From Microlunatus elymi (lineage in GTDB: Bacteria; Actinomycetota; Actinomycetes; Propionibacteriales; Propionibacteriaceae): a DNA stretch of 64,000 nucleotides. The notes below the pieces were generated by a model that made no database searches, was not told the origin of the DNA, and worked only from the letters and a program-made list of their open reading frames with translations. Positions 6,591 to 10,005 of this stretch are shown here, one piece after another. The stretch lies in assembly GCF_007362775.1 (NCBI RefSeq), contig NZ_CP041692.1, forward strand, positions 4,278,001-4,342,000. The letters are read 5' to 3'. The stretch's first letter is position 1, and each line of letters opens with the position of its first letter. A program made the position numbers and the translations under genes.

Positions 6591-7523
6591 GTGGCAGACA
6601 GTGGTTGGTATCCCGACCCGAGCGGGATACCCGGCCGCTATCGGTACTGGGACGGGCAGCAGTGGTCCCCGGCGACCAGTGCCGATCCGTCCGCTCCGCC
6701 GCCGGGCGCGAATCCACAGCCCCGACGGGGGCGCGGCGGAGCGCTGATCGCGGCTCTTGCCGCGGTACTGGTGCTCGCGGTGATCGTGACGCTGGCGGTC
6801 CGATCGTTCGGAACCGGCCGGGACTCGGTCCGCGATGATCCCCATCCGCCGCCGCCAACGGCCAGCGGCTGGGACGACTCGAGCCCGCTGCCGACCGCAT
6901 CACCGACCCCGACCAGAACGCCCTCGCCCAGCCCGTCCGAGCATGATCCCGGCGACGACGCGTCGGTCCGTCCGCCGGGCCAGGTTGCCTGTGCCGACGG
7001 CAATCCGTCGGCTCACGAGCTGCACCCCGGCGACGGCCGGATCCACGGCGGCCGGTTGTCGATCGCCCAACCCGGCGGCAGCTGGGTCCGCGACGACGGG
7101 TACGCGGCCGGGCTCAGCTACGCCTGGGACGTCAGCGGCGCCTCCGACACCGTCGAGACCTACTGGTGGGCGATGCTCGCGGTCGGCGCGTTGCACGCCA
7201 CCGACGGGTTCAAACACCCCAAGCAGGCGGCCGAAGCGCTGATGCAATGCACCGCGACGTCGGGCTACTACCAACATCGCACCGGGGTGAAAACCCTGTC
7301 CAGCAAGAGATTCACGCTGGCCGGACACTCCGGCTGGGCGATCCGCTCCGAGATCCGGGTGGACGATCCGCGGGTGCATGCCGAGGGCGACGTGGTAGAG
7401 GTGATCGTGCTCGACACCGGGGACGCCGGCCGGTTGTCGTTCTTCGCCGGATTCGTCCCGATCGGTGACGCGGCCAGAATCGACACGCTGGACAACACCA
7501 TCGCCGGACTGCGGGTCGACTGA
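6591..7523 (+). CDS. DUF2510 membrane-anchored protein, first of three paralogues
   Basis: 310 residues from GTG at 6591, chosen because GAGGAG lies just upstream and the protein then begins at the DUF2510 motif. Layout: DUF2510 (GWYPDPSG...RYWDG..W, residues 5-35), an Arg/Pro linker, one membrane span (about 63-85), a low-complexity Pro/Ser/Thr segment, then a globular domain of about 170 residues beginning near VACADG and containing DGRIHGGRLS. The orientation should place the C-terminal domain outside the cell. It shares layout and domain with the next two genes. Function unknown. DUF2510 is a short, probably protein-binding module common in actinobacteria. Confidence 0.85.
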   Translation: MADSGWYPDPSGIPGRYRYWDGQQWSPATSADPSAPPPGANPQPRRGRGGALIAALAAVLVLAVIVTLAVRSFGTGRDSVRDDPHPPPPTASGWDDSSPLPTASPTPTRTPSPSPSEHDPGDDASVRPPGQVACADGNPSAHELHPGDGRIHGGRLSIAQPGGSWVRDDGYAAGLSYAWDVSGASDTVETYWWAMLAVGALHATDGFKHPKQAAEALMQCTATSGYYQHRTGVKTLSSKRFTLAGHSGWAIRSEIRVDDPRVHAEGDVVEVIVLDTGDAGRLSFFAGFVPIGDAARIDTLDNTIAGLRVD

Positions 7524-7582
7524 TCAATTGCATGGCCGGATTACTGTCTGGTCACAGACAGAACTGCGGCCGAGGGTGATGC

Positions 7583-8488
7583 ATGGCGATGACCGGGTGG
7601 TATCCGGATCCGGGCGGTATGCCCGGGCGCTATCGCTATTGGGACGGCGAATCCTGGTCCGAGGCCACCACCGACGACCCGGCCGATCCGCCACCCGGCA
7701 CCGGCGGTCCGTTGCCGCCGCGGGAGGACAGCCACCATCCCGGTCGCGCCGTCGGCATCGCGGCTCTGGTGCTGGTCGTGGTCGTGGTCAGCGTGGTGTT
7801 GATCATGCGTCGTACCGACGACGTCGGCAGTCTTGATCTCGATCCGGCGTCCGCGCCGTCGACCAGCGGCTGGCAGAGCGCCGGGACGGCTACCGGCTCG
7901 AGCACCGCTCCGTCCGCTCCCCGGACCGCCGACGGGTCGTCGGCTACCGCCGGCACCTGCCCGGCCGGCCAGCCGGCCGATCTTGCTCTGCATCCGCAGG
8001 ACGGCAGGATCCACGGCGGACGGTTGTCGATGGCACCGGTACCGGGCTATTCGGATCCCGAACCGGAGTACATGCTCAGCTGGATGTGGGACACCCAGGG
8101 GGTGAACCAGACCACCGAGCCGGGCTGGCAGTCGATCTTCGCCGTCGGCGAGGTACGTCGTACGGCGGGGTTCTCCACCACCGAGGAAGCCGCGCACAGT
8201 TCGCTCGGTTGCGCCATCCGTACCGACTGGTATCTGAACTACACCGGCCGCAAGGACATCCGGGACGCGGCGATCACGGTCGACGGGCATCCCGGCTGGA
8301 TCGTGACCGCCGAGATCCACGACGACACCCCGCAGATCCGGGTTGCCGGTGATCAACTCACCTTCGTGGTGGTCGACGACGGCCGGCAGGATGCATTCTC
8401 GGTGTGGTGTGGCATGGTCCCGTTGGGTGATCAACAGCGGCTGGCGCTGGACCAGAAGGTTTTGTCCGGGCTGAAAGTGGGCGGCTGA
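7583..8488 (+). CDS. DUF2510 membrane-anchored protein, second of three paralogues
   Basis: 301 residues with the same order as its neighbours: DUF2510 at residues 5-35 (GWYPDPGG, YRYWDG), a membrane span (about 55-75), a Ser/Thr/Pro-rich linker and an extracytoplasmic domain with the matching DGRIHGGRLSM motif. Two Cys (one at the domain entrance, one in LGCAIRT) align with Cys in the other paralogues and could form a disulfide; this copy has an extra Cys in WCGMV. The 59-nt gap to the first copy suggests one transcript. Divergence outside the motifs is large, so the duplication is not recent. Confidence 0.85.
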   Translation: MAMTGWYPDPGGMPGRYRYWDGESWSEATTDDPADPPPGTGGPLPPREDSHHPGRAVGIAALVLVVVVVSVVLIMRRTDDVGSLDLDPASAPSTSGWQSAGTATGSSTAPSAPRTADGSSATAGTCPAGQPADLALHPQDGRIHGGRLSMAPVPGYSDPEPEYMLSWMWDTQGVNQTTEPGWQSIFAVGEVRRTAGFSTTEEAAHSSLGCAIRTDWYLNYTGRKDIRDAAITVDGHPGWIVTAEIHDDTPQIRVAGDQLTFVVVDDGRQDAFSVWCGMVPLGDQQRLALDQKVLSGLKVGG

Positions 8489-8548
8489 CGGCCGAGTCCG
8501 CGCGTGTCCTGGCCGGATCCGGCGTCCGCGCTGGCTACGTTGACCGTT

Positions 8549-9448
8549 ATGGCCGAGCCCGGGTGGTACCCCGATCCCTCAGCCTCCCCCGGCCGGTTCC
8601 GCTATTGGGACGGTGAGCGGTGGGCGGCCGAGTCGGTCGCCGACCCGAATCGCCGGCGGCGGATCATCGTGATCGGCAGCGTGCTCGCGCTGGCCGTGGT
8701 GATCATGGGCGCGTTGGTGATCATCTTCCGTCCCGACCACAATCCCGTCGGTACGCCGCCGCCGGTGATCGCCAGCGGTCCGTCCAGGTCCTCGACGGCC
8801 GGCTCACCGACACCCGGTTCCCGTACCACGTCGACAGCTTCCGACGCCGCGTCGCCGACCTCGGCCGGCTCGACCCCGACGGCGAAACCGCCGGTCACCC
8901 GGTGCCCGGACGGCGAACCGACCAGGACCGTCGACCACCCCTCGGACGGCCGAGTGCACGGCGGAGCGCTCTCCTTCCAGCCGATCTCCGGGTCCGGCTT
9001 CGGCAAGCCGGACGTTCTTGATCATTTCGGCTGGTGGTACGACGAACACGGCCAGCAGGCGAAGATCACCGACGACGACACCGGATCGGTCTGGCCGCAA
9101 TGGATCGCCGTCGGCACGGTCGCCATCCAGCCGGGATTCCAAACCCCACAACAAGCAGCCGAGCTCTCGACCCGGTGCGCGATCAGCGCCGGCGACTACC
9201 GCGGCTACACCGACAGCAAGACGATCAGCAGTGCCAAGATCACCATCGACGGCCAGGACGCGTGGAAGACGATCACCGAGGTCAGCGTTGCAGGGCGGGC
9301 GATGAAGGGCGACCAGATCACCGTGATCGTCGTCAACGCCGGACCGCCCGGCTCCTATTCGATCTTCCTCGGCACCGCCCCGATCGGCGACCCCGACCGG
9401 ACCAAGATCATCTCCACCGCGGTCTCCGGACTCCGCGTCGACGGCTGA
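8549..9448 (+). CDS. DUF2510 membrane-anchored protein, third of three paralogues
   Basis: 299 residues from ATG at 8549, which puts the DUF2510 motif (GWYPDPSA, RFRYWDG) at the N-terminus as in the other copies; an upstream in-frame start at 8504 would add unrelated residues. A span follows at about 50-70, then a Ser/Thr/Pro linker and a domain with DGRVHGGALSF, a PQQAAELSTRC segment and a closing VSGLRVDG, which parallels AGLRVD and SGLKVGG in copies one and two. Probable end of the three-gene unit. The conserved C-terminal domain is not one I can name. Confidence 0.84.
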   Translation: MAEPGWYPDPSASPGRFRYWDGERWAAESVADPNRRRRIIVIGSVLALAVVIMGALVIIFRPDHNPVGTPPPVIASGPSRSSTAGSPTPGSRTTSTASDAASPTSAGSTPTAKPPVTRCPDGEPTRTVDHPSDGRVHGGALSFQPISGSGFGKPDVLDHFGWWYDEHGQQAKITDDDTGSVWPQWIAVGTVAIQPGFQTPQQAAELSTRCAISAGDYRGYTDSKTISSAKITIDGQDAWKTITEVSVAGRAMKGDQITVIVVNAGPPGSYSIFLGTAPIGDPDRTKIISTAVSGLRVDG

Positions 9449-9453
9449 CCTGT

Positions 9454-10005
9454 CTATTTCTTGATCGCGTAGCGCAGGTGGGTGACGCCGGCTCCGGGCA
9501 CGACCTCGAGGGGCGAAAGCTTGACGTGCTGGGTCAACGGCGCGAAGAACGGTCGGCCCGAGCCGAGCAGCACCGGCACTTGATGCAGGATCACCTCGTC
9601 GACGAGGCCCGCGTCGATCGCCGACGCGAGCGTGACGCCGCCCTGGATCCCGACGTCCTTGCCGCCGGCGAGTTCACGAGCCCGCTCGAGTGCGGACTCG
9701 ACGTTGCCGGCGAAGCTCTGCCGGTCCGAGTCGACGTACTCGGCAGGCTGGGGGCGATGACTGACGACCACCATCGGAGCCGTGGGATGAGGACTCCCGC
9801 CCCCGAAGCCCTCACAGTCGTCGTAGGTCGTACGGCCGGTGACCACCGCACCGACCCGGTCGGCGAGCGCCGTGAAGTAGGCGGAGTTGTGTGGGTCGCT
9901 GTACCAGTCGAACAGCGTGCCGCCGTCGCCCAGGCCGCGACCCGGCCCGGGGTCGCGGCCGGTGATGAAGCCGTCGACGGACACGGCCAATGCGGCGAAG
10001 ATCAT
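9454..10005 (-). CDS. Dihydrofolate reductase family protein (RibD C-terminal type)
   Basis: 183 residues of the RibD C-terminal/bacterial DHFR-like fold: N-terminus MIFAALAVSVDGFITG, a VGAVVTGRTTYD nucleotide-pocket segment and IQGGVTLASAIDAGLVDEV, the usual Gly-Gly turn. Such proteins bind NAD(P)H and reduce small molecules, but most stand-alone members have no known substrate. ATG at 10005 is preferred because AAGGAG lies just upstream. It is divergent from the HxlR gene at 10094 across a short region carrying an inverted repeat, the usual arrangement of an HxlR regulator and its target. Confidence 0.88.
   Translation of the reverse strand: MIFAALAVSVDGFITGRDPGPGRGLGDGGTLFDWYSDPHNSAYFTALADRVGAVVTGRTTYDDCEGFGGGSPHPTAPMVVVSHRPQPAEYVDSDRQSFAGNVESALERARELAGGKDVGIQGGVTLASAIDAGLVDEVILHQVPVLLGSGRPFFAPLTQHVKLSPLEVVPGAGVTHLRYAIKK

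Follow-up and report, generated by a model that had tools for sequence, protein, structure and literature searches.

Three tandem DUF2510 membrane proteins of Microlunatus elymi carry a predicted Mog1/PsbP-like outer domain and belong to a family found across the Propionibacteriaceae

LpqN is reported to be capable of interacting with MmpL3 and MmpL11 and to be a possible link to periplasmic proteins (PMC7458404). Rv1097c, a "glycine and proline rich membrane protein", is reported to have co-purified with the cell-division protein Rv0954 (PMC8093794), and Rv1097c, Rv1098c and Rv1099c (fumC, glpX) are listed elsewhere as one growth-defect region (PMC3854130); as that region spans Rv1097c to Rv1099c, the growth defect is not assignable to Rv1097c alone. 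These proteins are compared here with the products of three tandem genes of Microlunatus elymi, A, B and C, which lie in a 64-kb window of contig NZ_CP041692.1, the window being the whole stretch of DNA that was analysed. Coordinates are window positions unless the genome is named.

A, B and C are open reading frames (ORFs) on the same strand, translated from the window, and share one architecture (Table 1). A preliminary description of this DNA had claimed three tandem genes with DUF2510, one span, a linker rich in Ser, Thr and Pro and a shared C-terminal domain, and Pfam, hydropathy and alignment bear this out. DUF2510 (PF10708) scores 44.2 bits in A, 36.8 in B and 38.8 in C, each over the Pfam cut-off of 24 bits (E values of 1.5e-11, 3.1e-9 and 7.8e-10, respectively). 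It is followed by a single hydrophobic span and by a linker of 46 to 59 residues, 43-57 % of which are Ser, Thr or Pro. The C-terminal domain starts with a Cys, carries the motif HPxDGR(I/V)HGG and contains a second Cys; the initial Cys, the core DGR(I/V)HGG and the second Cys, all described before, are present in all three proteins. The strong divergence of the copies was also seen correctly: over the full length B and C are 40 and 39 % identical to A, and within the domain A and C are each 35 % identical to B. That dN is lower than dS (nonsynonymous and synonymous substitution rates) between orthologues in other genomes argues against chance ORFs.

Table 1 Features of the DUF2510 gene trio of M. 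elymi (window positions)
Feature	Start	End	Strand	Remarks
Thiamine_BP (PF01910) gene	6208	6504	+	Pfam E 5e-27; 86 bases upstream of A
Protein A	6591	7523	+	310 aa; GTG start, GAGGAG upstream; Pfam and full-length AlphaFold2 model
A, DUF2510	6603	6701	+	Residues 5-37; Pfam, AlphaFold2
A, transmembrane helix	6738	6809	+	Residues 50-73; AlphaFold2 helix and hydropathy
A, PsbP-like domain (predicted extracytoplasmic)	6990	7520	+	From Cys134; alignment and AlphaFold2
Protein B	7583	8488	+	301 aa; architecture as A, plus third Cys
B, DUF2510	7595	7693	+	Residues 5-37; Pfam
B, transmembrane span	7751	7807	+	Residues 57-75; hydropathy
B, PsbP-like domain (predicted)	7958	8485	+	From Cys126; domain chosen for AlphaFold2 folding
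Protein C	8549	9448	+	299 aa; architecture as A; alternative GTG start at 8504
C, DUF2510	8558	8632	+	Residues 4-28 matched; Pfam
C, transmembrane span	8669	8725	+	Residues 41-59 counted from ATG 8549; hydropathy
C, PsbP-like domain (predicted)	8903	9445	+	From Cys119; sequence alignment

The C-terminal domain had been left unnamed in the preliminary description, which proposed profile searches, structure prediction and a neighbourhood survey as follow-up. By sequence this holds, as the domain lacks a Pfam or NCBIfam name and no well-described family of known function was matched; its fold, however, is a known one, and the family extends far beyond the three copies. In Pfam, nothing besides DUF2510 was found above cut-off in A, B or C. 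Searches with 71 aligned members gave best E values of 0.016 (Pfam) and 0.0077 (NCBIfam), to scattered unrelated families, and ten further relatives matched only DUF2510 and weak sub-cut-off entries in the two databases. Neither PsbP nor Lpp-LpqN (PF10738) is among the four Pfam families matched by any of the 71 members at E<=0.1. Membership of Lpp-LpqN was rejected, with an hhalign probability of 6.6 % in a profile comparison; the best match to this family in the M. elymi genome (E 1.21, sub-cut-off) is located away from the trio. A lipoprotein signal with a lipobox Cys is lacking, the conserved Cys of A, B and C being 119-134 residues in, behind the transmembrane (TM) helix and the linker. 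The two strongest sub-cut-off matches of the trio, GltJ for A (E 8.6e-5, residues 23-141) and CU044_5270 for C (E 0.0024, residues 31-108), were discarded as they cover the span and linker and not the domain. Against PDB sequences, the domain profile matched only cucurmosin (E 0.25), protein A gave one match (E 0.86) and the DUF2510 profile none at E<=10. As far as our literature searches reach, no paper on DUF2510/PF10708 and none joining LpqN with PsbP was found.

AlphaFold2 folding of the B domain, from 30 sequences of the window and related loci, gave a high-confidence model (predicted local distance difference test, pLDDT, 94.8; predicted template-modelling score, pTM, 0.90) in which a hairpin is followed by two strands, a helix, four strands and a second helix. 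At E<=0.001 Foldseek returned 24 chains; 3LYD, PsbP and Apa headed the list, which also held cyanobacterial PsbP, EagT6, PA94 and Mog1p. A VIA comparison matched the model to 3LYD (Z 12.7, root-mean-square deviation (rmsd) 3.4, 138 residues aligned), Apa (Z 12.5, rmsd 3.1, 141 aligned), PsbP entries (Z 11.1-12.5), MTC28 (Z 12.2, rmsd 3.4, 147 aligned), LpqN (Z 11.7, rmsd 3.5, 148 aligned) and DcrB (Z 11.0, rmsd 3.1, 121 aligned), with Tsi3, Tli4 and TplEi at Z 7.5-9.0. A second VIA run, with the full-length model of A, again matched residues 142-310 to proteins of the Mog1/PsbP fold, with Z reaching 12.9. In that model the block of residues 1-40 has a pLDDT of 90-94 and is followed by the helix at 50-73; residues 75-105 and 120-130 fall below 50, and the blocks from residue 141 onwards reach 92-98. 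The outer domain is thus predicted to be a Mog1/PsbP-like α/β/α sandwich. The DUF2510 part of the A model forms three short strands, and the module has conserved Trp residues at spacings of 14 and 19 and, close to its end, a Pro, a pattern reminiscent of a WW domain.

The two Cys residues of the domain (C134 and C220 in A) are invariant in the trio. Among 115 aligned members, scored as having a Cys if it lies within three alignment columns, both are present in 106, neither in nine and one alone in none; related rows in this count are not independent. Because the two co-occur and never stand alone, they probably form a disulfide. The members lacking the pair do not form a single branch of the tree: they come from families f2, f4 and f20 and include one distant copy from the same genus. 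The third Cys of B (residue 276), in the strand before VPLGD, is common to its three orthologues, and a Cys is seen by eye at a similar place in L020 and L034. By a simple hydropathy rule, all 115 members have one span ahead of the domain. Lys and Arg average 2.96 before the span and 1.43 after it, being more numerous before it in 91 members, fewer in seven and equal in 17; by the positive-inside rule this enrichment would place DUF2510 inside the cell. An N-in/C-out topology with an extracytoplasmic outer domain is therefore the likely arrangement. DUF2510 itself is found by pattern in 89 of the 115, and inspection by eye adds 19 of the other 26.

Of 197 Propionibacteriaceae genomes, 191 gave a match to a profile built from five sequences (among the 141 of good quality, 139 did so), mostly with one to three copies per genome and up to ten in Microlunatus. 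With the 71-sequence profile, matches were obtained in 128 of 196 genomes of an order-wide draw that included Propionibacteriaceae and in 23 of 296 of a class-wide draw. The underlying alignment was reduced from 108 matching stretches by dropping repeats from overlapping loci, partial matches and a relative lacking the Cys pair, and therefore holds no close relative of the latter protein. That protein is encoded at position 599558 of the M. elymi genome as a distant DUF2510-TM relative (domain E 4.0e-6), and a counterpart was seen in a second genome of the genus (L195, position 8755, E 3.9e-7). The M. elymi genome has seven DUF2510 genes, among them two further tandem full-protein copies (genome positions 4852346-4854248); the DUF2510 protein at 1698591, RDD-like by eye, did not match the domain profile. 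At locus L133 (223-2040), a membrane protein was seen whose outer part matches the domain weakly (E 2.6e-6) and has two Cys by eye.

A maximum-likelihood tree of 115 of the 117 domains, two with a short matched stretch being left out, splits with support of 97/99 into 47 rows (38 linked to pst, 9 other) and 68 rows (48 linked to gln, 17 other, 3 labelled pst). The three pst labels in the gln clade look false: L017 has other ABC permeases and two L170 rows have only an NagZ-like neighbour. The pst and gln lineages are two old lineages, each bound to its own synteny: in the pst lineage the domain gene typically follows PPK1-MutT1-PstS-PstC-PstA-PstB, and in the gln lineage it is typically flanked on one side by Map and on the other by a divergent GlnA, which is in some cases accompanied by NadE. 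A, B and C belong to the gln lineage. The survey that revealed these arrangements covered 101 neighbourhoods, in six of which the domain gene was uncalled; genes were called by a simple rule on GC at third codon positions (GC3), so that some starts and genes are wrong. Representatives were named by eye and their labels (PstS, PstC/A, PstB, GlnA, GlnE, Map, NadE, NagZ, Mtr, ResB, CcsB, PPK1, MutT1, MshD, Zwf and Fur) were spread by blastp; the Pfam check of neighbours covered FumC, Thiamine_BP and a small number of other genes. After removal of four repeats from 95 loci with a called domain gene, 91 distinct places remained. Within five genes, PstS or PstB is present at 30 of them, GlnA or Map at 28 and Thiamine_BP only at two; the other 31 have none of these, and 13 of the 31 are outside Propionibacteriaceae.

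The order of Thiamine_BP followed by domain genes at the trio also occurs in other Microlunatus (L014, L016, L180 and L188), the longest array seen being five domain genes in a row after Thiamine_BP (L180:7259-12112). In M. elymi, GlnA and Zwf lie about 19 kb upstream of the trio, for which the simplest reading is a gln locus that has been stretched. Between GlnA/Zwf and the trio, at genome positions 4267175-4276754, a run of genes was seen that by eye look catabolic (amidohydrolase- and permease-like) and that is unlike the relatives. Genomes with a single match have either a pst-type or a gln-type copy, so that neither Pst nor GlnA would be an obligatory partner. The near-constant element is the protein and not its neighbour, which argues for a shared, partly exchangeable function. 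Outside Propionibacteriaceae, TopA is the neighbour in Nocardioides-like genomes, TrpD in Kribbella-like genomes and family f4, an oligoribonuclease in f20 and FumC in the mycobacterial members (the Nocardioides, Kribbella and Mycobacterium labels are inferred assignments); a search for a partner in these neighbourhoods gave no common theme.

Each of four genomes taken for Mycobacterium has one match, to a protein whose N-terminus is rich in Gly and Pro and in which a single span precedes the domain, both Cys being present. These four proteins match the family with a best profile E value of 3.6e-20 and an hhalign probability of 98.3 % (E 1.3e-14). In L171 the domain gene, FumC and a GlpX-like gene lie side by side on the same strand, near a polysaccharide deacetylase gene, in the order of Rv1097c-Rv1098c-Rv1099c. 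Gene order and protein description, rather than the Rv1097c sequence, thus point to Rv1097c as the counterpart of the mycobacterial relatives.

On the tree, A and B are each joined by their orthologues from three other Microlunatus genomes, and C by an orthologue from one. Orthologues share 56-73 % identity for A and B and 47 % for C, as against 26-39 % between paralogues. For the outer part, dN/dS (NG86) is 0.33, 0.23 and 0.51 for A, B and C in comparison with G125, and 0.42 and 0.46 for A and B in comparison with M. endophyticus. At 26 sites the A and B groups, of four orthologues each, are fixed for different residues. These data show that the trio consists of retained old duplicates and not of recent noise. 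The pattern fits kept, specialised copies, for which distinct roles are plausible; the earlier idea of three different partners or ligands is compatible with each copy having its own orthologues but is not proved by it. The intergenic distances are 59 bases (A-B) and 60 bases (B-C, or 15 if C starts at the alternative GTG). A promoter and terminator scan found no promoter-like site (0.4 expected). The scan gave five terminator-like sites (0.8 expected), four within C and one at its end (9440-9454); the A-B and B-C gaps have no such site, a result that agrees with co-transcription of the three genes but does not show it.

We propose with moderate confidence that the trio proteins are membrane-anchored, non-enzymatic envelope adaptors that bind a partner or ligand outside the cell. 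They would be bitopic proteins with a cytosolic DUF2510, one TM helix, a flexible linker and an outer, disulfide-held sandwich domain, which the linker would let reach into the wall zone to bind an envelope protein or a lipid or glycan ligand while the DUF2510 end ties the adaptor to a cytosolic partner. The tandem copies would be old gln-lineage duplicates, each keeping its own specificity. An adaptor or binding domain is suggested because neither a match to an enzyme family nor a constant neighbour was found, and analogy with LpqN, which has the same fold and can reportedly interact with MmpL3 and MmpL11, supports such a role. The listing of Rv1097c among the proteins co-purified with Rv0954 also counts in its favour. 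Several points weigh against it. The Mog1/PsbP fold does not set function, its matches here including photosystem subunits, type VI secretion system immunity proteins and EagT6-type chaperones, and at the hhalign probability given above no sequence relationship to LpqN is detectable. Seven of the 115 members lack DUF2510 by eye, so that the module on the cytosolic side is not constant, and the neighbours vary outside Propionibacteriaceae (TopA, TrpD, oligoribonuclease by eye, FumC by Pfam). The two good-quality Propionibacteriaceae genomes G102 and G111 match neither profile, so the family protein is not indispensable. The Rv1097c co-purification entry is one of 19 lines, with 9 spectra (PMC8093794).

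The variety of cytosolic modules, DUF2510 in most members and a Gly/Pro-rich segment in the mycobacterial ones, would also suit a ligand sensor, in which binding of a small molecule to the PsbP-like domain outside the membrane would be signalled by way of DUF2510 or a different module in the cytosol. In L133 the N-terminus is in part kinase-like, with an NCBIfam PknB-type match to residues 48-144 (E 5.9e-11) that stays far below cut-off, and the gene just upstream in L173 and L174 is kinase-like by eye; but Pfam finds no kinase in any of the three loci, the neighbourhoods surveyed hold no conserved operon with a regulator, and we know of no catalytic or output signature for DUF2510, so that we regard a sensor as unlikely. 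Proximity to Pst genes at the 30 places mentioned, and PstB as direct upstream neighbour on the same strand in 17 of 17 cases (gaps of 51-424 bp, which are no proof of co-transcription), suggest an accessory of the Pst phosphate importer in the pst lineage with a nitrogen counterpart in the gln lineage. PstB, however, was over cut-off in all 15 genomes checked, in eleven of which no copy other than a gln-type one was seen; because these eleven keep Pst, this explanation is weighted lower and appears distinctly unlikely, and pst-only genomes also exist and the neighbours change outside Propionibacteriaceae. A broader speculation, which we hold to be very doubtful, is that two ancient adaptor lineages at phosphate-uptake and glutamine-synthetase loci tie the envelope state to phosphate or nitrogen supply, and that in Microlunatus, one member of which accumulates phosphorus, both lineages grew into tandem sets whose copies have separate ligands.

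Two further explanations start from the structural matches. Apa and MTC28 are among the best of these, MTC28 has Pro-rich stretches according to its PDB title and Apa carries them as well, so that the family might consist of surface or secreted antigen-like proteins with no specific partner; the chance of this is slim, as the family keeps its TM helix and usually a cytosolic domain and is conserved across a family of largely non-pathogenic bacteria. The similarity to Tsi3, Tli4 and TplEi, at the Z scores given above, together with diverging tandem copies, up to five in a row, might point to an array of membrane-anchored immunity-type proteins against the toxins of rivals. Immunity genes normally turn over fast, and single copies of the present family occupy the same housekeeping loci across Propionibacteriaceae, which makes an immunity array highly improbable. 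In any case, a family with no Pfam or NCBIfam name, present in nearly all Propionibacteriaceae genomes examined and seemingly reaching Mycobacterium with Rv1097c, has been outlined and gains a predicted fold, a probable disulfide and a likely topology.

Compared with the known systems, PsbP, MTC28 (Rv0040c), Apa, LpqN, DcrB and 3LYD resemble the B domain in its predicted α/β/α sandwich (Z 11.0-12.7 over 121-149 residues), and three of them, MTC28, Apa and LpqN, all from an actinobacterium, belong to the export side, where the outer domains of the trio are also predicted to lie. Identity between the B domain and Mog1/PsbP-fold proteins over the structural alignments is 3-12 %, and unlike those proteins the trio has the DGRxHGG motif and the Cys pair. 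LpqN has a lipoprotein signal with a lipobox Cys; the trio, which has no sequence-profile relation to LpqN/MTC28-type proteins, begins with DUF2510 and a TM helix instead of a signal peptide or lipobox. The Rv1097c-type proteins share the domain profile and the Cys pair with the trio, but a Gly/Pro-rich cytosolic segment replaces DUF2510. The Pfam name DUF2510 (PF10708) covers the short module matched by the N-terminal 35 residues of the trio and not the outer domain; what is new is the combination of DUF2510, a single span and a Cys-paired PsbP-like domain.

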